This document shows, piece by piece, positions 36,870 to 51,992 of a stretch of DNA of 64,000 bases; the first letter of the stretch is position 1; each line of letters starts with the position of its first letter. Below the pieces are notes generated by a model, which worked only from the letters and a program-made list of their open reading frames with translations, searched no databases and had not been told where the DNA came from. Source of the DNA: Streptantibioticus cattleyicolor NRRL 8057 = DSM 46488 (GTDB taxonomy: Bacteria > Actinomycetota > Actinomycetes > Streptomycetales > Streptomycetaceae); the NCBI RefSeq assembly GCF_000240165.1, contig NC_017586.1:2046001-2110000 (forward strand), given 5' to 3'. Position numbers and translations under genes: made by a program.

Positions 36870-37339
36870 GCCGACTTTCCTCCGCTTGTCCGTGTCGTGT
36901 CCATGGATCGGGCACGAGACATCCGATGGTTGCACCTACCGGTGGGTAGGCGGTAACCAGCCCCGGTCGCTCGACGGAACGCCGGATTGCGGAAAGATAC
37001 TTCCACGATGCGGGATGCCAGGGAAGGCTTTTCGGCCACCCGCACCCCGGAACCCAACCCTCCGGAAAGCGGATCCGGCCAAGGGGAATGGTCTTCAGGG
37101 GAGTCTTTGTTAATCTGAATACGGCACCGGCCCGATCCAAGCCCCCGGGCCCAACCATTGTCGCTACGAGCGACCGCTAGCCGCGAGGCGAGCATGGCGG
37201 GTCGGTGTCGCAAGCGTCACGAAGGGCGCCCCCCGTCGAGCACGGGGGGCGCCCTTCGTGGTCGGGTACGCGCCCGTACCGGGGCGTCCCCGCCCGCGCC
37301 GGAGCCGGGCGGGCAAGCGGGGAGGCCGGCGCGTCGTCC
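36870..37339. other. Intergenic region between the malic enzyme and HelD-like genes
   Basis: This 470-bp region has no gene. Features are the inverted repeat CCTACCGGTGGGTAGG (36935-36950), flanked by GGTT and AACC and a candidate operator of the malic enzyme, and the terminator at 37218-37260. A relatively A/T-rich patch near 37095-37125 may hold a promoter. Confidence 0.5.
37218..37260 (-). terminator. Terminator of the HelD-like gene
   Basis: A perfect 19-bp stem closes a 5-base loop, 80 bases after the stop of the HelD-like gene. Confidence 0.85.
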
Positions 37340-39859
37340 TCAGTCGCGCAGCAGGTCCGGGACGCCCGCCGCGTCGGGCTCGTCCCGTTCGCCGGCGACC
37401 ACGGTGAGCTGCTGGGTGGCCCGGGTCAGCGCCACGTAGAGCACCCGCAGCCCGGCCGGCGACTCGTCGGCGATCTCGGCCGGGGAGACCACCACCGTGG
37501 CGTCGTACTCCAGCCCCTTGGCCTCCAGGCTGCCCAGCGGCACCACCCGGTCGCCCAGCCCGGCCAGCCACCGCCGGGCCTGCGCGCGGCGGCCCATCGC
37601 CACCACGACCCCGACCGTCCCCTCGACCTCGGCCAGCAGCTCCTCGGCCGCCGCCCGCACCGCCGCGCCCAGATCGGCGCCGGCCACCGTGAAGCGCGGC
37701 ACCACCCCGGTCGAACGCACCGCCGACGGCGCCTCCATCCCCGGCATGGCCAGCTGGAGCACCCTGGCGGCCAGCTCGGCGATCTCCGCCGGGTTGCGGT
37801 AGTTGACGGTGAGCGTGAACCGCCGCCGGGTCCGGGAGCCCAGCGCCTCGTCGCGCGCCCGGGCGGCCTCGTCCGGGTCGCTCCAGGAACTCTGCGCCGG
37901 GTCGCCGACCACCGTCCAGGTGGCGCTGGTGCCGCGCCGGGCCACCATCCGCCACTGCATGGGCGTCAGGTCCTGCGCCTCGTCCACGATGACGTGGGCG
38001 TACTCGGTACGTTCCTGCTCCCGGCGTTCGGCGCGGGACCGGCGGGAGAAGTTGCGGTCGGCGAAGGTGGTGACCTCCTCCAGGCCGGTCAGCTCGTCCA
38101 GCGGGTCCACCTCGCGCGGCTTGGGCGGCTTGGGCGGGGTGCCGAGCAGCACCCGCAGCTCGTCCAGGAGCGCCACGTCGTGCACCGAGAGCGGACCGTC
38201 GCCGGCCGCCCCGAGCCGGGCCAGCGAACGGGCCACCAGCCGCGTCTCGCGGGGCGCCAGCACCCGCCGCGACCAACGGCCCAGCCGCCGCTCGTCGGCC
38301 ATCGCGGCGAGCACCCGGCGCGGGGTGAGCACCGGCCACCACGCCTGGAGGAAGCCGCCGAACGCGTCCTCCCCCGACACGTCCTCGTCGAAGGCGGCCC
38401 GGGCCTCCGCGATCAGCTCCGGGTCCATCAGGTGACGGCCGCGCCCGGACTTGGCCCACAGCGCGTCCAGCACCAGCCGGCGGGCGCGCGGACGCATCAG
38501 GTTGAGCGGGGCGGTGCCGCCGAGGACGTTGCGGCGGATCCGGGCGAGCTCGTCGGCGTCCAGCTCCAGCCGGCCGCCGAAGGCCACCACACGCAGCGAG
38601 GTCGGCACGTCGGCGTTGTCCAGCGCGCCGCGCGCGGCCCGGCGCAGCACCTGCACCATCCGGGAGGAGCCCTTGACCCGGGCGACCGCGGGCTCGTCGT
38701 AGGTGGTCGCCTCGGCGCCGTCCAGCAGCGAGCCCAGCGCGCGGATGGCCACCTGGCCCTCCTCGCCCAGCGAGGGCAGCACGCCCTCGGTGTACGACAC
38801 CAGCAGCGGCGTCGGGCTCACCACGAGGATGCCCCCGGAGTAGCGGCGGCGGTCCTGGTAGAGCAGATAGGCGGCGCGGTGCAGGGCCACCGCGGTCTTG
38901 CCGGTGCCGGGGCCGCCGGTGACCTCGGTGACGCCCGGGGCGGGGGCGCGGATCACCATGTCCTGCTCGGCCTGGATGCTGGCCACGATGTCGCGCATGG
39001 TGTGGCCGCGGGCCCGGCCGAGCGCGGCCATCAGGGCGCCGTCGCCGATCACCACGAGTTCCTCGCCGTCGAGGGTGGCGGTCAGCTCCGGACGCATCAG
39101 GTCGTCCTCGACGCCGAGGACACGGCGGCCCTTGCTGCGGATCACCCGGCGGCGCACCACCCGGCCCGGGTCCTTGGGGGTGGCCCGGTAGAACGGCGCC
39201 GCGGCCGGCGCCCGCCAGTCGATCACCAGCGGCGAGTAGTCGGCGTCCAGCACGCCGAGCCGCCCGATGTGCAGCGTCTCGGCGATCTCGGCGCGCCGGT
39301 CCGCCCCGATGGCGTCGTCGGCGACCTCGGTCGCGGTGAACGCCCCGTCCGGGCCGCGCCTGCCGTCCTTGCCGCGCAGCAGGTCGATCCGGCCGAAGAG
39401 GAAGTCCTCGAACTCGGAGTTGAGCCGGCTGAGGTGGACGCCGGCCTGGAAGACCTGCGCGTCGCGCTCGGCGAGGGCACCGGGGGTGCCGACCTGTGCG
39501 CGCTTCTCGGCGTCGTCCACGAGGAACTCCGCCTCGTGGATCTTCTCCTCCAGTCGGCGGTACACCCGGTCCAGGTGCGCCTGCTCCACCCCCACCTCCC
39601 CGGCGTCCCGAGAACCGTCCCGGGCCGCGCCCGGCTTGCTCGGGGTGAGGGAGTCCGCGCCGCGCGAGCCGTTTCGGGCTGCGCCCGGCTGGTCCGGGGT
39701 GAGGGGATCCGCGTCGCGCGGGACGTCTTGGGCTGCGCTTGGGTCCGTGGTGTTCGCTGCCTTGTGGTCGGCGGCGCGGACCATGTCACGCCCGGCCGTC
39801 CCGGCTCCGTCCCGGCCGGCGGCGTCGGCACCGTGCCGAGCCACGTCCTGCGTTGCCAC
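37340..39859 (-). CDS. HelD/HelR-like RNA polymerase-associated ATPase (UvrD/Rep-like)
   Basis: This 839-residue protein resembles the actinobacterial HelD group, superfamily 1 helicase-like ATPases that dislodge RNA polymerase from nucleic acid. One branch, HelR, protects polymerase from rifamycins. It has an N-terminal coiled-coil arm (about residues 85-140), Walker A in VTGGPGTGKTAVALHRAAYLLY (in part), Walker B IVDEAQDLTPMQ, and the C-terminal VLYVALTRATQQLTVV motif. The first 85 residues are low-complexity repeats of PGAARDGSRDA type. GTG at 39859 has AAGAAGGGGG upstream. HelD and HelR cannot be separated here. Confidence 0.85.
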   Translation of the reverse strand: MATQDVARHGADAAGRDGAGTAGRDMVRAADHKAANTTDPSAAQDVPRDADPLTPDQPGAARNGSRGADSLTPSKPGAARDGSRDAGEVGVEQAHLDRVYRRLEEKIHEAEFLVDDAEKRAQVGTPGALAERDAQVFQAGVHLSRLNSEFEDFLFGRIDLLRGKDGRRGPDGAFTATEVADDAIGADRRAEIAETLHIGRLGVLDADYSPLVIDWRAPAAAPFYRATPKDPGRVVRRRVIRSKGRRVLGVEDDLMRPELTATLDGEELVVIGDGALMAALGRARGHTMRDIVASIQAEQDMVIRAPAPGVTEVTGGPGTGKTAVALHRAAYLLYQDRRRYSGGILVVSPTPLLVSYTEGVLPSLGEEGQVAIRALGSLLDGAEATTYDEPAVARVKGSSRMVQVLRRAARGALDNADVPTSLRVVAFGGRLELDADELARIRRNVLGGTAPLNLMRPRARRLVLDALWAKSGRGRHLMDPELIAEARAAFDEDVSGEDAFGGFLQAWWPVLTPRRVLAAMADERRLGRWSRRVLAPRETRLVARSLARLGAAGDGPLSVHDVALLDELRVLLGTPPKPPKPREVDPLDELTGLEEVTTFADRNFSRRSRAERREQERTEYAHVIVDEAQDLTPMQWRMVARRGTSATWTVVGDPAQSSWSDPDEAARARDEALGSRTRRRFTLTVNYRNPAEIAELAARVLQLAMPGMEAPSAVRSTGVVPRFTVAGADLGAAVRAAAEELLAEVEGTVGVVVAMGRRAQARRWLAGLGDRVVPLGSLEAKGLEYDATVVVSPAEIADESPAGLRVLYVALTRATQQLTVVAGERDEPDAAGVPDLLRD

Positions 39860-40046
39860 GCAAGGACCCCCTTCTTGCAAACGTCGTGCGGTGGCCCCTG
39901 CGGGGCAGCCTGCAACCGTACGCCAAAGTTGCCGTATCCGCTCGCGCTGGCGGTCACCCATTTACCTCCCCGGGTGCCCCCGGTCCCCGTCTCGTCGTGG
40001 CTGGCGTCACGGATGTTTCCCCCCGCCCACCCGTGGCTGTGTTCGT

Positions 40047-40067
40047 ACAGTGCGGGGTGCGCACTGT
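40047..40067. repeat. Small perfect hairpin within the island
   Basis: ACAGTGC (40047-40053) pairs with GCACTGT (40061-40067) across a 7-base loop. Confidence 0.6.
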
Positions 40068-40092
40068 CTTCCTTGGTTTCCGGGGGCCCTCC

Positions 40093-40367
40093 GGGGTGAC
40101 TCCTCGCTCCACGTATCCGCCAAGGCTTGGCTCCGGCTGCTGGGTCGCTGCGGGGACACCCCTGCACGCCCCCGTTCTGTTGCGTTCCGCGCTGCGGCAC
40201 GGGGTGGGTGAGAAGGAGATCGGGGTGACCCCAACCTCCTCACTCACCCCCACCCGCGAAGAGAGGCACCCGCACGACGGCACAAGGGGGTGTGCCGGGG
40301 GTGTCCCCGCAGCGACCCAACAGCCGGAGCGCAACTGTGGCGGATACGCGGAGCGAGGAGTCACCCC
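40093..40367. repeat. Long imperfect inverted repeat (about 75-bp arms)
   Basis: Arm 40093-40167 and the complement of 40292-40367 agree at roughly 88% of positions. The longest exact blocks are at the outer and inner thirds, and differences cluster in the middle. The 124-base centre also has self-complementary parts (GGGTGAG near 40206 and CTCACCC near 40242), so the whole 275 bp could fold as one cruciform or RNA hairpin. Confidence 0.75.
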
Positions 40368-40481
40368 CGGCGCGCCCCCGACCCCGTACCGGCAGTAGGC
40401 GAACCACCCCGGTGCCGAACCAAACCAAAAACCCCACCAACCACCCACCGGGCAGCGGGCCGCCGGGGGCCACCCCGGCAA

Positions 40482-40605
40482 CCTGAAACGGGCGAACCGC
40501 CCACCACCGCATGGCCGTCCCAGCCGTGGGCGACGGGGATCCGGGGGTACCCCCGCCACACCGGGCCCGCCGGCGGCGACCCCGCATCCTGAAACGGGCG
40601 AACCG
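40482..40605 (+). repeat. Direct repeat pair, 18 exact bases
   Basis: CCTGAAACGGGCGAACCG occurs at 40482-40499 and 40588-40605, 106 bp apart. The roughly 25 bases before each copy are also alike, so the repeated unit is about 45 bp. Confidence 0.7.
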
Positions 40606-40621
40606 GCCACGGAGTAATGGC

Positions 40622-40662
40622 TGACCGCCGGCGCGAGGGAACCCCCTGACCGCCAGCGCGAG
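40622..40662 (+). repeat. Tandem 16-base repeats at the right end of the island
   Basis: TGACCGCCGGCGCGAG (40622-40637) and TGACCGCCAGCGCGAG (40647-40662) are 25 bp apart. The second is the exact complement of the left end at 39941-39956. Confidence 0.7.
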
Positions 40663-40780
40663 CGAACCCGCACGTCGGGAAGCCGGTACAGTACGTACGT
40701 TGACCGTGCTCGCAGTCGGGAATGTGCTGCGGAGCTCTCCAGCGCGTGGTGTGAAGCCATGCTCGCCGAAGAGGTTCGTG

Positions 40781-41512
40781 GTGGTTTCGTCAGACATTCC
40801 AGACATGCGTACCGGTTTCCGGCTCGCCGAGGCCCTGGCTGGGGCGGCCACGGCGCTGCACGCGGCCGAGGGGCCGGAGCAGACCATGGACACCGCCGTC
40901 GCCCTCGCGCGGGAGATCGTGCCGGGGACCGCCGAGGCGGGGATCACGCTGATCGAGCGCGGCACCCGGGTGCGTACCGGTGCCTGCACCACCGAGGCGG
41001 TGCGGGCGGTGGACGCCGCGCAGCGCAGCGGGCCGCAGCGTCCGGCGGCGCCGTACTGGGAGGCGCTGTGGGAGCGTCCCGTGGTGCGCCGGGAGGACAC
41101 CGCGCGCGATCCGGCCACCGAGGCCGCCGCCAAGCTGGGCCTGCGTTCGCTGCTGTCGTTGCGGCTCTCCTCGGGCTACCGGCGGCTGTCCATCCTCAAC
41201 CTGTACGCGTCCGGCGCGGACGCCTTCGACGACCGGGCGGTGCGGATCGGCCGGTTGCTGGCCGCGCACGTCTCGGTCGCCCTGGACTCCGCGCGGGTGC
41301 AGGAGCAGCTGACCGAGGCGATGCACACCCGGGACGTGATCGGGCAGGCCACCGGGGTGCTCATGGCCAAGCTCGACCTGGACGCGCGGGAGGCGTTCCG
41401 GCGGCTGGTGCGCGCCTCGCAGCAGGAGAACGTCAAGGTGCGGGACATCGCCTTCCGGGTGGTGGAGACCATCGGCGGCGGAAACGGCGAGCGGGGCAGC
41501 GGCATCGATTGA
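40781..41512 (+). CDS. GAF-ANTAR regulatory protein (first of two)
   Basis: The roughly 243-residue protein has an N-terminal GAF sensor domain (about residues 15-165, ending LLAAHVSVALDSARV) and a C-terminal ANTAR RNA-binding domain (RDVIGQATGVLMAKLDLDA, REAFRRLVRASQQENVK). ANTAR proteins bind paired hexanucleotide stem-loops in RNA and prevent termination. GTG at 40781 has GAAGAGG 6 bases upstream; GTG at 40778 and ATG at 40805 are alternatives. A second gene of the same type starts 23 bases downstream, so the two should be co-expressed. Confidence 0.85.
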   Translation: MVSSDIPDMRTGFRLAEALAGAATALHAAEGPEQTMDTAVALAREIVPGTAEAGITLIERGTRVRTGACTTEAVRAVDAAQRSGPQRPAAPYWEALWERPVVRREDTARDPATEAAAKLGLRSLLSLRLSSGYRRLSILNLYASGADAFDDRAVRIGRLLAAHVSVALDSARVQEQLTEAMHTRDVIGQATGVLMAKLDLDAREAFRRLVRASQQENVKVRDIAFRVVETIGGGNGERGSGID

Positions 41513-41535
41513 CCCGGCGGGGGCAGACGAGGGTC

Positions 41536-42267
41536 GTGACCGCCTATGGCCCAGGGCTCGATTTCTCCGCGTTGCACCGCACGCTGGCCGGCACCGCCGG
41601 ACTCGACGAGTTCCTCCAGGAGCTGACCGTCCGGGCGGTCAAGGCGATGCCGTACGTGGACGGGTGCAGCATCATGCTCCGCCGGGACGGCCGGCCCGCC
41701 ACGGTGGCCAGCAGCGACGACGTCTCGCGGCTGCTGGACGAGCGGCAGTACGAGGCGCTGGGCGGGCCCTGCCTGAGCAGCGTGGAGCACGACCGGGAGC
41801 AGATCGTCGCGGACGCGCGCGACGAGCGGCGGTGGAACGGGTACGCCGACTTCCTGCTGGAGCGGGGCGTCCGCTCGGTGCTCGCGGTGCCGATGGGGCT
41901 GGACGGGGACGGGGTGGGGGCGCTCAACTTCTACGCCCGGCTGCCGCACACCTTCGACGCCGACGCGGTGACCGCCGCGCGCCGGCTGGCCGCCCAGGCG
42001 GCGGGCGCGGTCCACGTGGCGTTGCGCATCGACCGCCACCTGGAGGAGACCGAGGACCTGCGGACCGCGCTGACCTCCCGCTCGGTGATCGACCAGGCGC
42101 TGGGGATCGTCATGGCCCGTCGGCGCTGTCCGGCGCACGAGGCGCTGGAGCTGCTGCGCCGCGCCTCCCAGCACCGCAACCTGAAGTTGCGGGAGCTGTG
42201 CGCCGGGATCGTCGAGGAGGTCAGCGGCGCCCCGCCGTCCACCGGGGGCTTCCAGCCACGCCGGTGA
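41536..42267 (+). CDS. GAF-ANTAR regulatory protein (second of two)
   Basis: This 243-residue protein has the same order as its neighbour: GAF domain (about 15-160, with DGCSIMLRRDGRPATVASSD in part) and ANTAR domain (SRSVIDQALGIVMARRRCPA, HEALELLRRASQHRNLK). The two paralogues differ in the GAF domain, so they may sense different signals but share an RNA target. GTG at 41536 has GAGGG very close upstream; the long upstream frame is a shadow of the first gene. The ligand is unknown. It converges on the antiporter operon with three bases between the stops. Confidence 0.85.
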   Translation: MTAYGPGLDFSALHRTLAGTAGLDEFLQELTVRAVKAMPYVDGCSIMLRRDGRPATVASSDDVSRLLDERQYEALGGPCLSSVEHDREQIVADARDERRWNGYADFLLERGVRSVLAVPMGLDGDGVGALNFYARLPHTFDADAVTAARRLAAQAAGAVHVALRIDRHLEETEDLRTALTSRSVIDQALGIVMARRRCPAHEALELLRRASQHRNLKLRELCAGIVEEVSGAPPSTGGFQPRR

Positions 42268-42270
42268 GCC

Positions 42271-44058
42271 TCACCAGTGGGTGAGCACCGCCAGCAGTCC
42301 CATACCGGCCGCCGTCCAGGCCACGTAGTCGCCGATGTGGCCGGACTGGAGGCGGCGCAGCGGGCCGGTGCGGCGCAGCGGGGCGACGAGCGCCGGGCGG
42401 TACAGGGCGAGGGCGGCCAGCGCCACCGCGACGGCGGCCGACACCAGCCCGAGCAGCACGCCGGGCAGGGTCCAGCCGACGGCGGGGGGCGAGGGGGTGC
42501 CGGGCGGGCGGGCGTCGAGGACGGCGGCGGCGTAACCGGCGTGGTCGGTGAAGGAGACGGCGGCCCGCGCGACGGCGTCGGCCAGCGCGGGGACCGTACC
42601 CACCGCGAGCGCACCGAGCAGCAGCGCGGCGGCGACCGCGACCATCGGCGGCGGCACCGCGCGGACCTCGCCCTCGGTCTCCGGCTCCTCGCCGCTGCCG
42701 GAGGTGGCGTCGGCGCCGTCGTCGGTGAGGGGGCGCCCGGCGCCGAGGAAGACCCGGCCGGCCGCGCGCAGCACCGCGGCCCCGGTGAGGGCGGAGACCA
42801 GGACGAAGAGCACCGGCAGCGGGGTCGCGGACTCCTCGGCGACCGCCTTGCCCAACCCGGTGCCGAACGGCGGCAGCCCGGCCAGGGCGAGTCCGCCGAC
42901 CGCGACGAGCGTGCCGAGGAAGGGCAACTCGCGGGCGCGGCCGTGCAGTTCGTGTTCGTCCACGCTGCCGTAGCGGTCCAGCAGGACGCCGGCGCAGGCG
43001 AAGAGCGCCGCCTTGGTGCCCGCGTGGCCGAGGACGTACAGGGCGATGCCGGCGGTGGCCTTGGGGGTGAACAGGGCGAGCGCGGTGAGGAAGAGGCCGG
43101 TGTGGGCGACGGTGGAGAAGGCGAGGAGCCGTTTGAGGTGGCGTTGCTGCCAGCACATCACGGCGCCGAGGACGGCGGTGAGGACGCCGAGGACCAGTAG
43201 CGCCCGCCGCGCGTCGGCCGCCGGTACGCCGCCGGGGCCGGCGAAGACGGTGTGGTAGACGCGGAAGACGCCGTACACCCCGGTCTCCACCATCACCCCG
43301 GACAGCAGCATGCACACCGGGGTGGGGGCGACCGCGTGGGCGTCCGGCAGCCAGAAGTGGAAGGGCACGGCGGCCGACTTGACCAGCAGCCCGGTCAGCA
43401 CCAGCACGAACGCGGCGGTGAGCACGGCGTCGTGCCGGGGGAACTGGTCGAGCCGGCGGCCGATCTGGGCCATGCCGAGTTGGCCGGTGCGGGCGTAGAG
43501 CAGGCCGATGCCGAGCAGACTGGCGTAGCCGCCCAGGGAGTTGACCACCCCGAAGGTGAGGCCGCCCTGGACCGCGCGCCGGGCTTCGACCCGGTAGCCG
43601 GTGAGCGCGTAGGCGACCACGCCCATCAGCTCGAAGAAGACGAAGGCGTCGAAGAGGTCGCCGGTGAGCGCGAAGCCGGCCATGCCCGCCTGGAAGAGCA
43701 GGATCATCGCCGGGAAGGCGCCGGGGGTGCGGCGCGGCGGTTCGGCGAAGTACCGCCAGGAGTAGACCAGTACGGCGGCCGACAGCAGCGAGGCGAGTGC
43801 GGCCAGGCCCAGTCCGGTCCGGTCGCCGACGAGGACGATGCCGACGCTGTGGCCGTGTACCGGGGTCCAGCCGCCGAGCCAGGAGACGACGGGGCGGGGG
43901 CCGCGGGCGAGTTCCGCGCCGGCCAGCGCGGTGGCGGTGGCGGCGCACAGGAGGCCGAAGGTGTCGCCGGCCTGCCGGGGCAGATGGCGGCCGGCCGCGG
44001 CCAGCAGCGCGGCCCCCAGCAGCGGCACCACCACGATCAGCGGCAGCAGGCGCTCCAC
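42271..44058 (-). CDS. mrpD: Mrp/Mbh-type antiporter subunit D (NuoM/N-like)
   Basis: This 595-residue protein with about 14 membrane helices is the proton-channel subunit related to NuoL/M/N of complex I. Key charged residues of the family are visible: the helix Glu in AFVFFELMGVVAYALTGYR and the Lys in LLVKSAAVPFHFWLPDAH. It is the only large NuoL/M-like subunit in the operon. Start ATG at 44058 lies 4 bases after the stop of the C subunit. The C-terminal quarter has an acidic loop (DGADATSGSGEEPETEGEV). Confidence 0.9.
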   Translation of the reverse strand: MERLLPLIVVVPLLGAALLAAAGRHLPRQAGDTFGLLCAATATALAGAELARGPRPVVSWLGGWTPVHGHSVGIVLVGDRTGLGLAALASLLSAAVLVYSWRYFAEPPRRTPGAFPAMILLFQAGMAGFALTGDLFDAFVFFELMGVVAYALTGYRVEARRAVQGGLTFGVVNSLGGYASLLGIGLLYARTGQLGMAQIGRRLDQFPRHDAVLTAAFVLVLTGLLVKSAAVPFHFWLPDAHAVAPTPVCMLLSGVMVETGVYGVFRVYHTVFAGPGGVPAADARRALLVLGVLTAVLGAVMCWQQRHLKRLLAFSTVAHTGLFLTALALFTPKATAGIALYVLGHAGTKAALFACAGVLLDRYGSVDEHELHGRARELPFLGTLVAVGGLALAGLPPFGTGLGKAVAEESATPLPVLFVLVSALTGAAVLRAAGRVFLGAGRPLTDDGADATSGSGEEPETEGEVRAVPPPMVAVAAALLLGALAVGTVPALADAVARAAVSFTDHAGYAAAVLDARPPGTPSPPAVGWTLPGVLLGLVSAAVAVALAALALYRPALVAPLRRTGPLRRLQSGHIGDYVAWTAAGMGLLAVLTHW

Positions 44059-44062
44059 CCGC

Positions 44063-44407
44063 TCACCCCTTCAGTTCGGAGAGCGCGTCGGGGTCGACGG
44101 TGCCGTGGCGTTTGGCGATCTGGATGACCAGGGCGAGCAGCAGCGCGGTGACGGTGGCACCGACCACGACGTCGGTGAGGGCGAGTGCCTGCACCACCGG
44201 GTCGACCACCGGCCGGCCGGGCTTGATGTCGGAGAAGACCGGGGCGGTGGCGCCACGCCGGTAGCCGACGGCGAGCAGCAGCACGTAGGTGGCGGACTGG
44301 GCTACCGACAGGCAGCCGACCGCGTGCACCAGGTTGCGGCTGGTGGCGATGCCGGCCATCCCGGCCAGGAAGACGTACCCGGCGACCAGGTACGGAAAGA
44401 CGCTCAT
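44063..44407 (-). CDS. mrpC: Mrp antiporter subunit C (NuoK-like)
   Basis: This 114-residue protein with three membrane helices resembles MrpC/MnhC and NuoK. Recognisable parts are AGIATSRNLVHAVGCLSVAQSATYVLLLAVGY (in part) and the C-terminal VVQALALTDVVVGATVTALLLAL. Its ATG overlaps the stop of the upstream gene (ATGA). It belongs to the antiporter operon running from 45986 to 42271. Confidence 0.9.
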   Translation of the reverse strand: MSVFPYLVAGYVFLAGMAGIATSRNLVHAVGCLSVAQSATYVLLLAVGYRRGATAPVFSDIKPGRPVVDPVVQALALTDVVVGATVTALLLALVIQIAKRHGTVDPDALSELKG

Positions 44408-45144
44408 GCCTCCTCGTCCTCCTCCTCGATCTCGACGGCCTGGTCGAGGAAGGAGGCCAGCAGGACGACCACGCCCGCCGCGACCTCCATCCCGACGGCC
44501 GCGTTGAGCAGCGGCACGGTGCCGCCGGACGACATGGTGTTGAGGGTGCCGTGCGGCAGCGTGTTGGTCAGGTAGGCGGCGCCGGTCAGCAGGGCGGCGG
44601 CGCCGAGGACCAGATAGGCGGCCTCGCCCGCGGCGTCGGCGAGTTCGTAGGCCCAGGTGGGGCGGACGCGTTCGATGGCGCGGTAGTCGGCGCCGATGTA
44701 GAGCAGGTGGAGGGCGGTGGCGACGACGACGCCGCCCTGGAAGCCGCCGCCGGGGCTGAGCTGGCCGTGGGCGATCACGTACAGGCCGATCAGCAGGGTG
44801 ACCGGCAGCGCGACGCGGCCGTAGCGGCGCAGGGCGGGGACGACGGGGGCGGGCTGCGGCGGCACCCGGTGTTCGTCGCTGGCCTGGCGCAGCAGCACCA
44901 GGGTGCCGATGACCGAGGAGAACAGGATGGACTCCTCGCCGAGGGTGTCGAAGGCGCGCTGGTCGAAGTTGACGGAGCTGACGGTGTTGGCGGTGTGCTG
45001 GCGCAGCGCCGTCCATACCGCGCGGTCGCCGTAGGGGTGCCAGGCGCCGCCGAAGCGGGGCAGGCCGAGGCAGGCGGCGGTCAGCAGGACGGCGAGGACC
45101 GCGAGTCCGGCGGCCAGCACCCAGCGGCGTTCGCGCAGGCTCAC
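44404..45144 (-). CDS. Fused MbhE/MrpB-type antiporter subunit
   Basis: The 246-residue protein combines two pieces that are separate in many complexes. The N-terminal part (about 1-90, with NFDQRAFDTLGEESILFSS) matches the MbhE-like end of MrpA. The rest matches MnhB/MrpB (IAHGQLSPGGGFQGGVVVAT and later helices). GTG at 45144 overlaps the preceding stop (GTGA). About six membrane helices are expected. Confidence 0.85.
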   Translation of the reverse strand: MSLRERRWVLAAGLAVLAVLLTAACLGLPRFGGAWHPYGDRAVWTALRQHTANTVSSVNFDQRAFDTLGEESILFSSVIGTLVLLRQASDEHRVPPQPAPVVPALRRYGRVALPVTLLIGLYVIAHGQLSPGGGFQGGVVVATALHLLYIGADYRAIERVRPTWAYELADAAGEAAYLVLGAAALLTGAAYLTNTLPHGTLNTMSSGGTVPLLNAAVGMEVAAGVVVLLASFLDQAVEIEEEDEEA

Positions 45145-45389
45145 TCGCGCCGCCCCTTGCGCCGTACCTTGCGCACCGTCAGCATGATCATCAGCGGGGT
45201 GACCGCCGACCCCACGGCCAGCTGCGACAGGCCGACGTCGGGTGCCTGGACGACCGTGAAGAGCACCGCGAAGCCGAGGCCGAGGAGCGACAGGACGATC
45301 GCCTGGCGGGCCGGGTCGCGGTTGAGCACGGCGGCGGTCGCGGCGACGGCGACGAAGACCAGGGCGAGCGCGATGAGGACGTCAGCCAC
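45141..45389 (-). CDS. MbhD-like antiporter subunit (DUF4040)
   Basis: This 82-residue protein has three membrane helices and matches the DUF4040/MbhD segment that forms part of MrpA elsewhere; its core is VLFTVVQAPDVGLSQLAVG. GTG at 45389 lies inside the end of the previous gene, with an 8-base overlap. The next gene continues the MrpA C-terminal region. Confidence 0.85.
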   Translation of the reverse strand: MADVLIALALVFVAVAATAAVLNRDPARQAIVLSLLGLGFAVLFTVVQAPDVGLSQLAVGSAVTPLMIMLTVRKVRRKGRRE

Positions 45390-45813
45390 GGCTGACCGCC
45401 TTGCTGGTGACCGCGCCGCCGACGATCAGCAGCACCCCGATGACCAGCAGCTTGACCAGGGAGCGGCCGGGGCCGGTCACCACGCACAGCGGGATGACGG
45501 TGAGCGGGGTGCCGACGAGGGTGACCGGGGTGAGCAGCCGCGCGCCGGGCGGGGTGCGCCGGATCTCCTCGTCCAGGAGTTTGGCGAAGACCAGGGTGCC
45601 GGCCGGGCCCAGCACCGAGATCACCAGGGCGAGGTCGACGTAGGCGGTGCGTCCGTAGCCCTGCGCGAGCAGCAGGAAGACCAGGCAGAGCAGCAGGGTC
45701 GCCATGTTCTGGGCGACCACGCGGCGTCCGGTGGTGCCGCGGGCGGCGCCCCACAGGCAGGGTCCGACGCCGCCGGCGAAGACCACGGCGGCGGCGATCA
45801 GCCAGCCGTTCAC
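45382..45813 (-). CDS. Fused MrpF/MrpG-like antiporter subunit
   Basis: The 143-residue product has an N-terminal MrpF-like part (residues about 1-80, with GRTAYVDLALVISVLGPAGT) and a C-terminal part resembling the MrpG/MnhG end (VIGVLLIVGGAVTSKAVSR). These are normally separate proteins of about 90-110 residues each, so the fusion is condensed. GTG at 45813 overlaps the preceding stop (GTGA). Confidence 0.75.
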   Translation of the reverse strand: MNGWLIAAAVVFAGGVGPCLWGAARGTTGRRVVAQNMATLLLCLVFLLLAQGYGRTAYVDLALVISVLGPAGTLVFAKLLDEEIRRTPPGARLLTPVTLVGTPLTVIPLCVVTGPGRSLVKLLVIGVLLIVGGAVTSKAVSRG

Positions 45814-45986
45814 CCGGTCACCGCCCGCCGGGCCACGTACGCGCTGACCGCGCCGAGCAGCGCGGCGACCGCGCCGATCGCCGTCTCCAGCACGTCCACC
45901 GTGCTGATCAGCATCAGCCACAGCACCAGCAGTCCGGCCCACCAGCCCGCCACCTCGGCCACCGCCCGGACGTCACGCCGCCTCAC
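45810..45986 (-). CDS. Very short MrpE-like subunit
   Basis: The 58-residue product has two predicted membrane helices (AVAEVAGWWAGLLVLWLMLIST and ETAIGAVAALLGAVSAYVA, shown in part). Its place at the head of the operon is that of MrpE/MbhA, but it is only about a third of the usual length, so identity rests mainly on position. GTG at 45986 has GGAG 5 bases upstream. Confidence 0.6.
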   Translation of the reverse strand: MRRRDVRAVAEVAGWWAGLLVLWLMLISTVDVLETAIGAVAALLGAVSAYVARRAVTG

Positions 45987-46237
45987 GTCAACTCCACCTC
46001 CGCGCCGCCGGGTACCCGCCATCGCCCGCGTTGCACTCCGGAGAAACCCCAGCAAACCACGTAGAACGGGTGATTCACCGGCGCGACGCGTATCCCGCCG
46101 CCCGGGATCGGCGAGTTGACGGTGACGGCACGCCAGGAAGGCGTCGGGGCGCGGGCCTTGGGGGCCGGAGCGTGTCCGGCGGACCGGCGGAGGGAAGATC
46201 GGGACGGAGGAACGGCACCGATCGGGAAGGACCCCCC

Positions 46238-47386
46238 ATGGCCCGCACCTGGCACGACGTACCCCTGACCGGCGGCCCCGTGGAGTTCCGGGGGGCGCTC
46301 GACGCGCGGCGCACCGAGCACGGGGTGCTGCCGCTGCGGCTGCCCGGCTGGACCCGGGCGCAGTACCCGGACGCGTTCGTGCGGGGCGTGGCGGAGATGC
46401 CGGCCGGGGTGCGGCTGGCGTTCGCCACCCGGGCGCGGACGCTGGAGCTGGAGGTGCACACCACGGTGTGGCGGTTCGAGGGCGAACCGGACGCGGTGCC
46501 CCCCGGCGTCTTCGAGGTGTACGCGGACGGGGAGCCGGCCGGGCGGACGGCGGTGCCGGCGTGCACGGTGTGGTGGCTGACCGGGCCCCGGGCGAGCCCC
46601 CGGGTGGTCCCCGGCCCGGCGGCCACCGTGCGGTTCACGCTGCCGCCCGGTACCGAGCAGGTGGAGCTGTGGCTGCCGCAGCAGACCCCCACCGAGCTGG
46701 TGGCGTTGCGGGCGGACGCCGAGGTCACCGCCCCGGCGCCGGACGGCCGCCGCCGCTGGGTGCACCACGGCAGCTCCATCAGCCACTGCCTGGGCGCCGA
46801 CGGGCCCACCGGCACCTGGCCGGCGGTGGCGGCGCTGCGCGGCGGGGTGGACGGGGTCAATCTGAGCCTGGCCGGCAACGCCATGCTCGACCCGTTCGTG
46901 GCACGGGTGATCCGGGACGCCCCGGCGGACCTGATCAGCCTGAAGGCGGGCATCAACATCGTGGGCCGGGCGGCGTTCCGGCTGCGCACCTTCGGCCCGG
47001 CGGTCCACGGGTTCCTGGACACCGTGCGGGAGGGCCATTCGGACACCCCGCTGCTGGTGATCTCCCCGGTGACCGCCCCGGCGCTGGAGGAGACGCCGGG
47101 GCCGGCCGGGGCGGACGGCGACGGCATGCTGACCGCCCTCGGCGATCCGGCGGACGTGGCGGAGGGAGCGCTCACCCTGGGCGTGGTGCGCGAGGAGCTG
47201 GCGCGGATCGTCGCCGAGCGCCGGGCGCACGACCCCCGGCTGCACTACCTGGACGGCCGGGAGCTGTTCGGCCCGGCGGACGTGGCCGACCTGCCGGACG
47301 GGCTCCACCCCAACGCCGCGGCCACCCGGCGGATGGGCGAGCGGTTCGCGGTGCTGGCCTTCGGCCCGGACGGGATCTTCGGCTGA
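46238..47386 (+). CDS. SGNH/GDSL-type hydrolase
   Basis: This 382-residue protein has an N-terminal beta-sandwich-like region (about 1-165) and a C-terminal SGNH hydrolase domain. The four blocks are visible: nucleophile Ser in HHGSSIS (near residue 180), LAGNA, KAGINI in place of the usual GxND, and DGLHPN with the catalytic Asp-His. This type usually acts as an esterase on carbohydrate or lipid substrates. There is no signal peptide, so it is cytoplasmic. ATG at 46238 has GGGAAGGA upstream. Confidence 0.85.
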   Translation: MARTWHDVPLTGGPVEFRGALDARRTEHGVLPLRLPGWTRAQYPDAFVRGVAEMPAGVRLAFATRARTLELEVHTTVWRFEGEPDAVPPGVFEVYADGEPAGRTAVPACTVWWLTGPRASPRVVPGPAATVRFTLPPGTEQVELWLPQQTPTELVALRADAEVTAPAPDGRRRWVHHGSSISHCLGADGPTGTWPAVAALRGGVDGVNLSLAGNAMLDPFVARVIRDAPADLISLKAGINIVGRAAFRLRTFGPAVHGFLDTVREGHSDTPLLVISPVTAPALEETPGPAGADGDGMLTALGDPADVAEGALTLGVVREELARIVAERRAHDPRLHYLDGRELFGPADVADLPDGLHPNAAATRRMGERFAVLAFGPDGIFG

Positions 47387-47413
47387 GCACGAAGAGACCA
47401 GGGAGCCGGAAAA

Positions 47414-47451
47414 GCCGAAGGGCCCCGCCGGTGTCGGCGGGGCCCTTCGGC
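47414..47451. terminator. Bidirectional terminator between the SGNH gene and tmRNA
   Basis: A perfect 17-bp stem (47414-47430 with 47435-47451) closes a GTGT loop. It serves the plus-strand hydrolase gene and, 14 bases past its end, the minus-strand tmRNA. Confidence 0.9.
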
Positions 47452-47464
47452 CACATGGGACGAG

Positions 47465-47832
47465 TGGAGATGGCGGGAATCGAACCCGCGTCCTGAAGTG
47501 CGGAAACAGGGCTTCTCCGAGCGCAGTCTGCTGTGCTTTTCTCAGCCCCGGCGGTCACGCAGACAAGCCGCCGACGGGCTCAGCCACTGTTTGATTTCCC
47601 ACCAGATCCCGTGGCCGGACCTAGTGGTTTAGTCCCCTAGCTGATGCCAGACACCGGGCCGGGAACACTCCCGGGCTGACACTTCGCGAGTCGCTACTTA
47701 GGCAGCGAGGGCGAAGGAATCGCGCTTGTTGTTGGCGATTATTTTTTTGCGACACGTGGTTTACGAGATCATTGCCGCTTCCTCGGCTCGCTTCCCCTGT
47801 CTCGACAGCTCCAGTCGAAACCGATCATCCCC
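47465..47832 (-). ncRNA. ssrA: Transfer-messenger RNA (tmRNA)
   Basis: The tRNA-like ends are clear: GGGGATG (47826-47832) pairs with CATCTCC (47466-47472), followed by discriminator A at 47465, and the T arm CGGGTTCGATTCCCG is present. CCA is not encoded. The tag frame reads GCC resume codon then AAC AAC AAG CGC GAT TCC TTC GCC CTC GCT GCC TAA, giving ANNKRDSFALAA, 12 residues. The longer ANTKRDSSQQAFALAA is what I recall for S. coelicolor. smpB lies just upstream in transcription, on the same strand. Confidence 0.95.
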
Positions 47833-47959
47833 ATGTTCTCTTCTCAAGGTGCGGCCCTCGCGGGGCCTGGGCCACGCGACGGCGTCGAGCCCATGGTACG
47901 GGATCAACGGGCGGCCGGGCCAGCGTATTCCCGCCGGGCCCGGGGCGCGCCCCGCCGGG

Positions 47960-48439
47960 TCAGCCGCGGCTGCGCCGCCGGGCCGCCGACATCGCCCGGT
48001 CCGCCTCGCGGCGGTCCTGCTTCTCGCGCAGGGTCTGGCGCTTGTCGTAGTCCTTCTTGCCCTTGGCGAGCGCGATCTCGACCTTCGCGCGGCCGTCCTT
48101 GAAGTACAACGCCAGCGGGACGATGGTGTTGCCGGTCTCCTGGGTCTTGCCGACCAGTTTGTCGATCTCGGCTCGGTGCAGCAGGAGCTTGCGCTTGCGG
48201 CGTGCCGAGTGGTTGGTCCACGTGCCCTGGCTGTACTCGGGGATGTGGACGTTGTGCAGCCACGCCTCGCCGCCGTCGAGCTGCGCGAAGCCGTCGACCA
48301 GCGAGGCGCGTCCCTGGCGCAGCGACTTGACCTCGGTGCCGGTGAGCACCAGGCCCGCCTCGTAGGTGTCCAGAATGTGATAGTCGTGCCGCGCCTTCTT
48401 GTTCTGCGCGATCAGCTTGCGACCGGTCTCTTTAGCCAT
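47960..48439 (-). CDS. smpB: SsrA-binding protein SmpB
   Basis: SmpB binds tmRNA and brings it to stalled ribosomes. The 159-residue protein has the OB-fold core with [21 protein letters not shown] and [13 protein letters not shown], the binding loop [12 protein letters not shown], and the basic C-terminal tail [19 protein letters not shown]. The tmRNA gene lies 127 bases downstream, so the two partners are adjacent. ATG at 48439 gives the standard start [16 protein letters not shown]. Confidence 0.95.
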
Positions 48440-48457
48440 AGCCTGGTCATTCTCCCA

Positions 48458-49663
48458 CTACGAGGCGGTGCCGAGGCCACTCAATACCGTCTCGGCGGCG
48501 GCCCCCGCGTCCCGGCCGCCGGCCACCGTCAGATCGGGGCGGATGCCGTGGCCGTCCACGGTGCGGCCGGACGGGGTGCGGTAGTGGCCGACGGTCAGCT
48601 CGGCGACCGAGCCGTCCGGCAGGGTGCTGGGCATCTGCACCGAGCCCTTGCCGAAGGTGGGCGAGCCGGCCACCACGGCCCGGCCGCGGTCCTGCAACGC
48701 CCCGGCCAGCAGCTCGGCGGCGCTCATCGTGCCGCCGTCCACCAGCACCACCAGCGGCGTGGTGGTGTCGCCGCCCTGGGCCGCGTACAGCGAACGCGTC
48801 CGGCCGTGCACGTCGTAGCGGGCCACCAGGCCGCCGTCGAGGAACGCGGAGGCCACCTCGACGGCCTCGGTGACCAGTCCGCCGCTGTTGCCGCGCAGGT
48901 CCAGCAGGACGCCGCGCCGGTGGTCGCCGGCGGCCAGCGCGCGCCGTACCCGGCCGGCCGTGCCGTGCGGGAACGAGTCCACCGCGATCTGGAGGATCCC
49001 CGGGCCCGGGCGGGAGACGGTGACCGTCTCGGCGGTGAGCACCGCGCGGCGCAGGGTGACCGTACGGTCGCGGGCGCCACGCCGCAGCACCAGCCGGACC
49101 GGGCTGCCGGGGCGGGGCGCGGCGGTGGCGTCCGGGTCACCACCGGCCCCGCGCAGCCGGGCCACCACCTCGGTCACCGGGCGTCCGGTCACCGCGGTGC
49201 CGTCCACCGCCACCAGCCGGTCGCCGGTGCGCACCCCGGCCCGGCGGGCGGGCGAGGCGTCCTGGACGCGGCTGACGCGCACCACGCCGTCCGGCGCGCG
49301 GCGCACCCACAGCCCGACCCCGGTGTAGCGGCCGTCGAGTTCCTGCTGGAAGCCCTCGTACTCCTGGGCGGTGTAGAACGCCGCCCAGCGGTCGCCGCTG
49401 CGGCTGACGAGCGCGGCGGCGTCCTGCGGGCCGACGGCGCCGTCGTCGATGGCGCGGGCCAGGCGTGCGGCGTCGAGCCGGTCGGCGGCCGGGGTGTACG
49501 GGCGCGGACGGGTGCGGACGGCGGCCGGGGCCGGGTCGCCCTCGGCCGCGCGGCCGAAGGAGCCGGTGGCCGCGCCGGTCGCCAGCACCGCCCCGAAGAC
49601 CAAGGTCAGCGTCACCCCGCGGCGGATCGACCGGGGTTCGGCGAACATCGTGCGGCCGGACAT
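48458..49663 (-). CDS. S41 family carboxyl-terminal processing protease
   Basis: This 401-residue protease has an N-terminal hydrophobic segment (about residues 15-33), then a PDZ domain (about 115-200) and the S41 catalytic domain. The Ser-Lys dyad is S314 in GGTMSAAELLAGAL and K339 in TFGKGSVQ. It should act outside the membrane, trimming secreted or surface proteins. It lies 40 bases... upstream of smpB by only 18 bases, and downstream of ftsX, a typical streptomycete arrangement. Confidence 0.92.
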   Translation of the reverse strand: MSGRTMFAEPRSIRRGVTLTLVFGAVLATGAATGSFGRAAEGDPAPAAVRTRPRPYTPAADRLDAARLARAIDDGAVGPQDAAALVSRSGDRWAAFYTAQEYEGFQQELDGRYTGVGLWVRRAPDGVVRVSRVQDASPARRAGVRTGDRLVAVDGTAVTGRPVTEVVARLRGAGGDPDATAAPRPGSPVRLVLRRGARDRTVTLRRAVLTAETVTVSRPGPGILQIAVDSFPHGTAGRVRRALAAGDHRRGVLLDLRGNSGGLVTEAVEVASAFLDGGLVARYDVHGRTRSLYAAQGGDTTTPLVVLVDGGTMSAAELLAGALQDRGRAVVAGSPTFGKGSVQMPSTLPDGSVAELTVGHYRTPSGRTVDGHGIRPDLTVAGGRDAGAAAETVLSGLGTAS

Positions 49664-49739
49664 GCCCGGGAGTGTAACGCCACGGCCGCGTCAACGGCGG
49701 GGCGCGTGGGCGGCGTTGGGCGGTGACCGGAACGACGGC

Positions 49740-49784
49740 GGGCGCCGCACGGACCGTTCGCACGACGGCGTCCGTACGGCGCCC
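49740..49784 (-). terminator. Terminator after ftsX
   Basis: Arms of 14 bp with one mismatch (49740-49753 with 49771-49784) enclose a 17-base loop, 45 bases beyond the ftsX stop. Confidence 0.5.
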
Positions 49785-49829
49785 GCAAGCGCCTTCGCAC
49801 GGCGCGGACTTGGGGCCCGCGCCACAGGG

Positions 49830-50747
49830 TCACACCTTCAGGTACTTGCGCAGCGCGATGAAGGCGGCCAGGGCGGGCATCAGTATGCCGACCACCAGCA
49901 CCAGCGGCAGCACCTTGATCACATCTCCCCAGCCGAGGAAGTGGATCAGCTGCACCTTCTGCGCCAGGCCGAGCCCCGCGTCGATCAGGTAGTAGCGCCC
50001 CACCAGCAGCATCACGCAGGCCACCACGCCGCCGATGAGCCCGGCGAGCGCGGCCTCCATGATGAACGGCATCTGGATGTAGAAGCTGGAGGCGCCCACC
50101 AGCCGCATGATGCTGGTCTCCCGGCGCCGGCTGAACGCCGAGACGCGCACGGTGTTGACGATCAGCAGCATCGCCACCGTCAGCATGAACGCCAGCACCG
50201 CCAGGGCCACGATGGTCATGCCGTTGAGCAGCCCGAAGAGGTTGTCCAGCAACTTGCGCTGGTCCTGCACCGACTGCACGCCGGGGCGGCCGTCGAAGGC
50301 GCTGGAGATCACCTGGAACTGGGTGGGGTCCTTGAGCTTGACGCGGAACGAGTACTGCATCTGGTCCGGGGTGATCAGATCGGCCCCGGGCTGCCCGGCG
50401 AACTGCTCCTTGTAGTGCTTGTACGCCTCCTGGGGCGTCTCCTTGTAGATCTTGTCGACCACCGGCAGCTTCTTCAGATCGGCCTCGATCTGGTCCATCT
50501 GCTCCTGGGTCACCGCGCCCTTGGAGCAGTTGGCGGTCTCGGTGCCGTCGGCCTTGTTGCACAGGAAGATCGACACCTGGACCTTGTCGTACCAGTAGCC
50601 CTTCATGGAGCTCACCTGCTCACGGGCGAGCCAGGAACCCCCGGCGAGCGCGAGGGAGAGGGCGACGGAGACGATCACCGCGAAGGTCATGGTGAGGTTG
50701 CGCCGGAGACCGACGCCGATCTCCGACAGGACGAACTGGGCGCGCAT
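49830..50747 (-). CDS. ftsX: Cell division ABC transporter permease FtsX
   Basis: This 305-residue protein has four membrane helices and a large extracellular loop between the first two (about residues 45-170). With FtsE it activates peptidoglycan hydrolases at division sites. MRAQFVLSEIGVGLRRNLTM is the conserved N-terminus, and SRRRETSIMRLVGASSFYIQ near residue 205 matches the FtsX signature. It lies 39 bases downstream of ftsE on the same strand. Confidence 0.94.
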   Translation of the reverse strand: MRAQFVLSEIGVGLRRNLTMTFAVIVSVALSLALAGGSWLAREQVSSMKGYWYDKVQVSIFLCNKADGTETANCSKGAVTQEQMDQIEADLKKLPVVDKIYKETPQEAYKHYKEQFAGQPGADLITPDQMQYSFRVKLKDPTQFQVISSAFDGRPGVQSVQDQRKLLDNLFGLLNGMTIVALAVLAFMLTVAMLLIVNTVRVSAFSRRRETSIMRLVGASSFYIQMPFIMEAALAGLIGGVVACVMLLVGRYYLIDAGLGLAQKVQLIHFLGWGDVIKVLPLVLVVGILMPALAAFIALRKYLKV

Positions 50748-50786
50748 GAGGACCTTTCTGCCGCTGCCTCGGCTGCTGTTGGGGTT

Positions 50787-51476
50787 TCAGTGCTGGTAGC
50801 CGTAGACACCGCGTGACTGGTCGCGGACGAGCCGCCCCTGCTCCAACTCGATGACGCGCTTGCGCATCTGGTCGACGATCTGCTGGTCGTGGGTGGCCAT
50901 CACCACGGTGGTACCGGTGCGGTTGATCCGGTCCAGCAGCTTCATGATGCCGACCGAGGTCTGCGGGTCGAGGTTGCCGGTGGGCTCGTCGGCGATCAGC
51001 AGCAGGGGCCGGTTGACGAACGCCCGGGCGATCGCCACCCGCTGCTGCTCACCGCCGGAGAGCTCCCCCGGCATGCGGTCCTCCTTGCCGCCGAGGCCGA
51101 CCAGGTCGAGCACCTCGGGCACGGTCTTGCGGATCGTGCCGCGCGGCTTGCCGATGACCTCCAGGGCGAAGGCCACGTTCTGCGCCACGGTCTTGTTGGG
51201 CAGCAGCCGGAAGTCCTGGAAGACGGTGCCGATCTGACGCCGCATGTGCGGCACCTTCCAGTTGGACAGCCGGGCCAGGTCCTTGCCGAGGACGTGCACC
51301 GAGCCGGTGTCGGTGCGTTCCTCGCGCAGCATCAGCCGCAGGAACGTGGACTTGCCGGAGCCGGAAGAACCCACCAGGAAGACGAACTCGCCCTTGTCGA
51401 TCTCCAGCGAAACGTCGCGGAGCGCGGGACGGTTCTGTTTCGGATAGGTCTTGCTCACATTGTCGAAACGGATCAC
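50787..51476 (-). CDS. ftsE: Cell division ATP-binding protein FtsE
   Basis: This 229-residue ABC ATPase is the cytoplasmic partner of FtsX. Walker A is [10 protein letters not shown], the signature is [14 protein letters not shown], and Walker B is [24 protein letters not shown] is the usual start. It is the first gene of the ftsE-ftsX operon. The upstream 327 bp separate it from a small divergent gene. Confidence 0.95.
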
Positions 51477-51803
51477 AGCGATGCACCAGGGGTGGACTGG
51501 AGGGACGGACAGCCGACAGCACGGCTCTCCCGGTGGGGCGACCTTACGCGAAGCGCGCGCGAGCGCGCAGTCGCCGTCCGTGGTTGGTGGGTTTCCTCAC
51601 CCGCTATAGGGGGACAAAGGTCGCATCGGTCACATCCGCCCGAACCGTTCCGCACGGGGCGCGCCGATTCGGCCGGAAGCTGGCACAGTGGGAGGAGGGC
51701 GGTACGCGGGGCACGGGTGGACGCGCCCCGGGGAACCGCCGGACGCCCCACGGCGTTAGGACAGGTGATACATGCGGCAGGGCCGTGTGGGAGGAGGCGG
51801 CGC
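51477..51803. other. Divergent region upstream of ftsE
   Basis: This 327-bp region has a TATAGG near 51605 on the plus strand and an alternating GC stretch near 51555, but no -35/-10 pair of normal spacing. No gene is seen. Confidence 0.4.
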
Positions 51804-51992
51804 ATGACTTGCGACCGACTGGTGTGCGCCAACTGCGCCGGACCCGTCGCGGAGGGCCGCTGCGCCGTCTGCCGGGCCAACCGGGAACGGCTGCACCAGG
51901 AGAACCCCTTCGCCGCGCTGACCCCGGCGACCCTGGTCGCGCTGCTGCTCGCCCTGATCGCCGTCGCGGTGCTGGTGCGCCAGGCGGTCTGA
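51804..51992 (+). CDS. Small CxxC membrane protein (62 aa)
   Basis: The 62-residue product starts with a likely zinc ribbon, CANCAGPVAEGRCAVCRAN, whose two CxxC pairs are C8/C11 and C20/C23. A helix at about residues 43-59 (ATLVALLLALIAVAVLV) follows. GGAGGAGG precedes the ATG, so it is probably a translated gene although too short for many gene finders. It is divergent from ftsE. No function is known. Confidence 0.75.
   Translation: MTCDRLVCANCAGPVAEGRCAVCRANRERLHQENPFAALTPATLVALLLALIAVAVLVRQAV

Follow-up and report, generated by a model that had tools for sequence, protein, structure and literature searches.

A predicted MrpA-less, Mrp-type operon with fused subunits and altered ion-path residues in Streptantibioticus cattleyicolor

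A 64,000-nucleotide stretch of the Streptantibioticus cattleyicolor NRRL 8057 = DSM 46488 genome (contig NC_017586.1, positions 2,046,001 to 2,110,000; hereafter the window, whose numbering is used throughout) carries six minus-strand open reading frames (ORFs), running from 45986 to 42271, that together appear to encode a self-contained six-chain membrane complex of the Mrp type (CPA3, group 3) without MrpA. Judged from its sequence, the complex is best read as a proton-driven cation/proton exchanger in which a single proton channel is combined with a rerouted path for the cation, a reading that we favor with modest confidence. Mrp complexes have been discussed as ancestors of complex I. The absence of MrpA alone and the fusion of MbhE to MrpB are both already known; new here are the sequence signatures of the branch to which the operon belongs, the fusion of MrpF to MrpG together with a truncated MrpE, and the near-exclusion between this compact operon and MrpA in Streptomycetaceae.

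In order of transcription, the genes encode an MrpE-like protein (58 aa, 45810..45986), an MrpF/MrpG fusion (143 aa, 45382..45813), MbhD (82 aa, 45141..45389), an MbhE-MrpB fusion (246 aa, 44404..45144), MrpC (114 aa, 44063..44407) and MrpD (595 aa, 42271..44058), the sole antiporter-like subunit of the operon. Pfam matches were obtained for the F/G fusion (MrpF_PhaF, PF04066, 3e-12, residues 31-80), MbhD (PF13244, 1.2e-16), the MbhE-MrpB fusion (MnhB, PF04039, 9e-25), MrpC (Oxidored_q2, PF00420, 6.7e-18) and MrpD (Proton_antipo_M, PF00361, 4.6e-55), and with the NCBIfam matches they bring homologues of MrpB, C, D and F together in one operon, as in a CPA3 Mrp. PDB alignments also identified MbhD, which corresponds to a portion of the C-terminal domain of MrpA, and MrpC. 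The MbhE-MrpB fusion aligns along MbsE of the membrane-bound sulfane reductase (MBS) and to MbhE and MbhF of the membrane-bound hydrogenase (MBH), and it retains the D66-TLG-E70 exit-site motif. Among the window proteins, neither the short E nor the G half has a Pfam match; both were assigned via relatives with a full-length E and a separate G, the short E aligning with the N-terminus of the former and the G part with the latter. Of the full-length E relatives, those at loci L046 and L087 exceed the MNHE cut-off, and the one at L048 stays below it. Because four gene pairs overlap, by 4 nucleotides (E/FG, MbhD/EB and EB/C) or 8 nucleotides (FG/MbhD), and the last pair (C/D) is separated by only 4 nucleotides, the genes very likely form one transcription unit. 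In these respects the initial annotation, which had proposed an Mbh-like gene order with two fusions, an E of just 58 residues and a single transcription unit, was borne out, with every ORF located as it described.

The 58-residue E starts at a GTG codon at 45986, with a GGAGG-like site upstream (by eye), and by comparison it would contain two short helices only, without the cytoplasmic ferredoxin-like domain of MrpE. The F/G fusion comprises the three MrpF helices and the last two MrpG helices and lacks the first MrpG helix with the RLHA loop; its structural model, of low confidence (mean predicted local distance difference test score, pLDDT, 66.9), contains five long helices, and a Foldseek search with it returned nothing at E <=0.001, the best rows being complex I K and MrpF/MbsB chains. 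MrpD carries Glu143 in transmembrane helix (TM) 5, Lys227 in TM7, Lys404 in TM12 and Glu258 in place of Lys in TM8, and it ends in a two-helix extension (all residue numbers are counted from the window start codons).

The 8.1 Mb genome, rated 100% complete, was searched as a whole for a separate MrpA. Proton_antipo_M matched seven times, as two sets of three lying close together, which we read as NuoL/M/N, and the operon MrpD; the MbhD family, which is present in the C-terminal halves of MrpA, matched only at this operon. By these matches no MrpA was found elsewhere in the genome, in agreement with the initial annotation, and the mark of group 1 and 2 Mrp, an MrpA with a NuoL-like N-domain, was not found. 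The operon thus has the features by which group 3 Mrp is described in PMC8415708, no mrpA and one or more mrpD.

An MrpA-less Mrp of this group has been published from Pyrococcus furiosus, for which deletion and Na+-stimulation data, Na+ coupling and a role in pH are reported, and whose driving force is called unknown (PMC8415708). The P. furiosus operon (mrpEFGBB'CD) shares with the present one the subunit order, the lack of both MrpA and an energy-input module, and a single MrpD. It differs in having MbhD joined to MbhE and separate genes for E, F and G, whereas here MbhE is fused to MrpB, F to G, and E is truncated; moreover, several proposed pathway residues are described there as highly conserved (PMC8415708), and here the acids are rearranged. 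MBH and MBS (6cfw, 6u8y) have a similar gene order, and MbsE of MBS is the same MbhE-MrpB fusion, but in the present case no hydrogenase or sulfur reductase gene was seen by eye beside the operon, the MbhD Glu is absent and D groups with ordinary MrpD. The MrpD fold and homologues of MrpB, MrpC and MrpF are held in common with group 1 and 2 Mrp of Bacillus, Anoxybacillus and Dietzia (7qru, 6z16, 7d3u), from which the operon is set apart by the missing MrpA N-domain and by changed cation-path residues. Some group 3-like reference loci (for example L201, L207 and L211) have the order F-MbhD-B-C-D with MbhD not joined to a D-like ORF, as here, but contain three antiporter-like ORFs, while the branch described below has one, with a C-terminal extension. 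The literature records mnhB, mnhC, mnhD and mnhF in an S. chartreusis genome (PMC6338045) and a group 2 Mrp in Salinispora (PMC3314556), and this branch was not recognised among the open-licence papers listed on Mrp in Streptomyces, group 3 Mrp or F/G fusions.

Comparison across genomes indicates that the operon is conserved as a self-contained unit and as a branch in Actinomycetota. MrpD used as a query matched 96 of 297 Streptomycetaceae genomes at 1e-60, across 13 of 17 genera, and 44 of the 396 genomes in a phylum-wide sample of Actinomycetota at 1e-50; four weaker matches in the latter (L102-L105) are ordinary Mrp operons with a second D copy and were used as references. In a scan of named genomes capped at 80 loci, the best matches include Streptomyces rimosus, S. 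mashuensis, S. guryensis, S. xanthochromogenes and a Nocardia, and others among them come from bins labelled Actinomycetes, Planctomycetales, Delta- and Gammaproteobacteria and Rhodospirillales, although such bin labels may be wrong. A plasmid collection contained one carrier, a 1.16 Mb Streptomyces chartreusis plasmid whose own gene table shows no gene at that position.

A tree of 178 D-like proteins recovers the branch as 22 tips (support 1.0). It groups with one single D and with 20 MrpD proteins from loci that have two D copies and, mostly, an MrpA (0.951), and not with NuoL or MrpA; several deeper nodes of this tree are weak (0.719, 0.585). The initial annotation's likening of the operon to Mbh holds for gene order, while MrpD itself groups with the MrpD of ordinary Mrp operons. 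The 178-protein tree, for which complex I proteins were chosen by profile, omits one sequence, the third D-like protein of a gammaproteobacterial bin (L243_D3, a 590-aa ORF from 7143). Adding it (179 proteins) places it closest to the branch (0.929); the branch itself then has support of 0.999, and its grouping with MrpD 0.923. An earlier tree, with complex I proteins selected by ORF length, had placed three of them, with L243_D3, beside the branch, and it was replaced. Both trees are rooted on one MrpA or an MrpA group, MrpA tips not forming one small group in the 179-protein tree, and contain no sequence recognised as MBH. The D model (mean pLDDT 82.7) finds its best fold in MrpD, with Z scores of 43.0 (9a6h_B), 42.6 (7qru_D) and 41.0. 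In the fold alignments, NuoL rows reach residue 580 or 581 and MrpD rows end near 516, and the D extension, with model helices at 531-553 and 575-594, is therefore laid over the end region of NuoL. Alone, the extension has no convincing Pfam match; its profile weakly matches an ORF upstream of MbhD in L200 (2e-4, domain), a D-like protein in L209 (0.021) and an antisense-looking, unlikely ORF in L243 (0.007).

The residues proposed to carry ions in other Mrp complexes are partly kept and partly changed throughout the branch. For the MbhD, MrpC and TM8 counts, a locus with only D on its contig (L192) and 19 non-clade loci that did not have both MbhD and MrpC were left out, the comparison group includes complex I-like loci such as L208, and the branch members are related, some genomes possibly being of the same species, so that the counts are not independent events. 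On the MrpD side, TM5 Glu143 and TM7 Lys227 are kept in 107/107 branch rows and TM12 Lys404 in 106/107 (12/16 of the named branch loci in another alignment). The MbhE exit acids Asp66 and Glu70, corresponding to exit-site Asp792/Glu796 of Anoxybacillus, are both kept in 106/106 scored branch rows, with one gap. The acid of the proposed first sodium-loading site, represented by Glu69 in MBH MbhD or, one turn later, by Glu687 in Bacillus MrpA, has been altered. The window MbhD has Gln56 at the position of Glu69, and neither acid is found in 112 of 121 branch members; an MbhD acid is thus present in 9/121 of the branch versus 47/49 others. We regard this acid as typical of the known Mrp members and not as a strict requirement for belonging to the family. 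Conversely, helix 3 of MrpC carries an acid, Asp79 in the window operon, in 121/122 branch members versus 0/48 others. Nine members carry both the MbhD and the MrpC acid, and they are plausible intermediates that would fit gain of the new acid before loss of the old one. From alignment and published numbering, Asp79 sits between Thr78, the counterpart of Anoxybacillus Thr75, which faces the exit Glu, and Val80, the counterpart of Bacillus Ile77, located between Glu687 and the exit tunnel (PMC9568556).

A further change affects MrpD TM8, where Lys250 belongs to a Lys-His-Lys triad (PMC9568556). Lys is found here in 0/123 branch members and Glu in 112, compared with Lys in 60/68 and Glu in 3 of the others. 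One ordinary operon with a second D copy (L103) also has Glu at this position of MrpD, and the Lys-to-Glu change may therefore have arisen more than once. At the position of MrpF Asp29/32, Asp is nearly invariant outside the branch (38/39, with Glu in 1/39), and the 13 branch loci from outside Streptomycetaceae have Asp in 2 and Glu in 2. Two other candidates for branch-specific losses were dropped: MrpF Asp35/38 also varies among the references (Asp in 16 and Asn in 20 of 39), as does the MrpC His pair (Gln at position 37 in 18/51). A pattern for the MrpG Pro motif hit 1/64 reference loci, evidently by chance, and was not used.

Within Streptomycetaceae, the window operon falls in a sub-branch defined by two further losses. 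The survey covered 97 loci, 96 retrieved ones and that of the window; all parts are present in 94, and three are incomplete or broken. These three (L178, L180, L181) and three loci at contig edges or with split genes (L091, L100, L101) were left out before counting. Two of them (L180, L181) are Streptomycetaceae loci with damaged operon genes, and L100 is a distant relative with its MrpD split over two frames. In 33 of the 94 loci, F and G are fused and E has 53-65 residues without the cytoplasmic domain; the other 61 have a full-length E and encode F and G as two proteins, with no mixed locus. Loss of the MrpE domain and of MrpG helix 1 thus coincide completely (33/33 vs 0/61), and an RLHA-like motif is found in 0/33 fused versus 59/61 separate G proteins. 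In a tree of MbhD, EB, C and D, the 33 fused loci form one clade (0.999) inside the Streptomycetaceae group (1.0), so both losses map to one branch and represent one event, not 33. The part removed is the proposed cation entry of the Anoxybacillus structure, which consists of the MrpE domain and the MrpG histidines (PMC7419157).

Constraint on the subunits was estimated as the median pairwise ratio of nonsynonymous to synonymous rates (dN/dS) for pairs with dS of 0.2-1.2; synonymous rates are poorly measured in GC-rich DNA, and only the order of the values and their lying below 1 were used. Medians in the fused group are 0.49 for E, 0.38 for F, 0.49 for the G part, 0.32 for MbhD, 0.37 for EB, 0.23 for C and 0.34 for D. 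MrpC is the most constrained subunit (0.23 and 0.27), and in the group with separate F and G constraint is weakest on the MrpE cytoplasmic domain (0.74).

How protons and cations are coupled in Mrp, and by which route the cation travels, is debated between published structures (PMC7419157, PMC9568556). In the model for Bacillus, Na+ travels to Glu687 (first site) either via MrpF Asp38 or by a more direct route from the cytoplasm; it exits at Glu780 (second site), and proton movement through MrpA and MrpD supplies the drive (PMC9568556). In the branch, the first loading site mostly lacks an acid and a new MrpC acid lies between the two sites; the simplest reading is therefore that the loading site has moved and that the direct uptake route is used. 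In the exchanger that we favor, protons would enter down the proton-motive force via the single antiporter-like subunit MrpD, by way of the TM5 Glu, TM7 Lys and TM12 Lys and with MrpD as the sole proton entry, like the MrpA-less Mrp of P. furiosus, and their entry would expel a monovalent cation (Na+, K+ or another) through MbhD, MbhE and MrpC to the retained MbhE exit acids, with the cation-binding carboxylate at the coupling point shifted from MbhD (Glu687 of Bacillus MrpA) to Asp79 in MrpC helix 3. In the sub-branch that includes the window, removal of the entry vestibule (the MrpE domain and MrpG helix 1) might permit more direct ion entry, in line with the second uptake path that has been proposed for Bacillus. 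As a guess, the C-terminal MrpD helices may cover the docking face that MrpA, MbhM or a hydrogenase occupies in relatives. The complex would probably have an accessory part in pH or cation homeostasis, alongside other exchangers. Taken to its full extent, with the loading carboxylate moved, the TM8 Lys replaced by Glu and the MrpE/MrpG vestibule lost, the operon might encode the smallest working Mrp exchanger, having one proton channel and a cation route of its own unlike that of every solved Mrp structure, but we advance this stronger version only tentatively.

Several observations weigh against an exchanger. The TM8 Lys is replaced by Glu in 94/94 Streptomycetaceae. At the MrpF Asp29/32 position, the same 94 loci have Asp in 1 and Glu in 12, with no acid in the 33 fused proteins, and mutating these residues abolishes both activity and complex formation in Bacillus. 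Pro is found at the MrpG Pro81 position in 0/33 fused and 27/61 separate proteins; the P81A mutation of MrpG abolishes Na+/H+ antiport in Bacillus, yet the mutant still complements sodium sensitivity. The placement of Asp79 relative to the ion path is taken from the published geometry of neighbouring residues, and all Mrp subunits are generally required in published work (PMC5703873). The initial annotation's "reduced antiporter" is upheld by the subunit make-up, but since cation-path residues are missing and an acid has appeared elsewhere, Na+/H+ exchange cannot be assumed.

The main competing explanation is that the complex no longer exchanges Na+ or K+, that MrpD is a regulated proton path serving pH relief or proton coupling to another substrate, and that the small subunits remain for assembly. 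Loss of the MbhD acid in 112/121 members, loss of MrpF Asp29/32 in 93/94 Streptomycetaceae (12 having Glu) and the disappearance of the MrpE domain and MrpG helix 1 in 33/33 sub-branch members all agree with it, and six Na_H_Exchanger (PF00999) matches elsewhere in the genome could represent the proteins that handle Na+. While the losses fit this explanation equally well, the conservation of the new MrpC acid in 121/122 members does not, nor do the retained MbhE exit acids and the position of MrpC as the most constrained subunit, and we consider it unlikely, though the strongest of the alternatives. The distinction matters in either case. The operon has been kept intact in many soil actinomycetes despite losing the largest subunit and parts of the ion path, and as a natural complex without the MrpA proton channel, the proposed vestibule and the proposed first loading acid, but with a new conserved acid adjoining known path residues, it offers a direct test of the minimal needs of an Mrp. 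Should it exchange cations, neither the vestibule nor MrpA is essential to the mechanism; should it not, the operon shows what the leftover core does.

Alternatively, the complex could be a redox-driven module that docks on a unit encoded elsewhere, such as hydrogenase or complex I parts, in the manner of MbhA-H in MBH. Its Mbh-like gene order would suit such an arrangement, and the best PDB sequence match of D is MbhH of MBH (6cfw_H, 3.4e-46), with D subunits of MBH, MBS and Mrp leading the list. The genome also contains an extra set read as NuoL/M/N and one NiFe hydrogenase large subunit, which lies far from the operon on another contig (C1 1247674-1249236). This protein of 508 residues matches PF00374 at 1-82 and 153-508, a pattern that we take to be untypical of group 4 enzymes and that speaks against the proposal. 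No hydrogenase or sulfur reductase gene was seen by eye beside the operon among the ORFs of window positions 36000-52000, as the initial annotation had also found for hydrogenases, and neither NuoH nor complex I peripheral-arm genes were seen among the ORFs around it. Neighbourhoods of 36 loci were surveyed by rough gene calls and clustering, in which several genes are mis-framed in GC-rich DNA and some families lie on the strand opposite the operon. Outside the operon, 16 families are each common to 3 to 6 loci, and the ten that were named, from one representative each, include no hydrogenase or complex I part, a further point against a redox partner, which we regard as improbable. The most widespread neighbour is a STAS-domain protein (6/36 loci; L043-L046, L053, L058); the others are NAD epimerase, MFS, enolase-like, short-chain dehydrogenase, alcohol dehydrogenase, sigma-70, hemerythrin and glutamate-cysteine ligase families (the last two in 3 loci each) and one without a match. 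The STAS, hemerythrin and glutamate-cysteine ligase neighbours give only a hint of stress functions.

That the operon is a decaying remnant is very improbable: domains and residues have been lost, 3/97 Streptomycetaceae loci are incomplete or broken and D is split over two frames in L100, but all parts are present in 94/97 loci, dN/dS medians are 0.23-0.49 in the fused sub-branch and the branch signatures are near-uniform. Least credible is an ordinary Mrp with MrpA supplied in trans from another locus, which the reported essentiality of MrpA in Bacillus would favor but which is rejected for this genome, where no MrpA was found, barring a gap in the assembly at such a gene, and which fares poorly elsewhere. 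With an MrpA-type gene marked by MbhD inside an open frame >850 aa, at least 59 of the 297 Streptomycetaceae genomes carry one, yet only 3 of the 96 carriers of the compact operon (G031, G273, G293) have both among the matches listed, where 19 were expected (Fisher p 5e-8, treating genomes without regard to relatedness). For the other 93 carriers no MrpA-type frame is among the matches listed, and the compact operon therefore works, if at all, without MrpA.

Around the operon, GAF/ANTAR-like regulator ORFs (by eye) run toward it on the plus strand (40700-42267) and end 4 nucleotides from the MrpD stop. Farther out, a stretch without a clear gene holds an imperfect inverted repeat (40079-40381), whose two 101-nucleotide arms are 79% complementary with a 101-nucleotide spacing, and, near it, a 52-nucleotide direct repeat at 40453 and 40559. 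On the other side lies a tmRNA gene (47464-47832, minus strand) encoding the tag ANNKRDSFALAA, with ORFs on the same strand resembling, by eye, SmpB (47960-48439), an S41 protease (48458-49663) and FtsX/FtsE (49830-51476).

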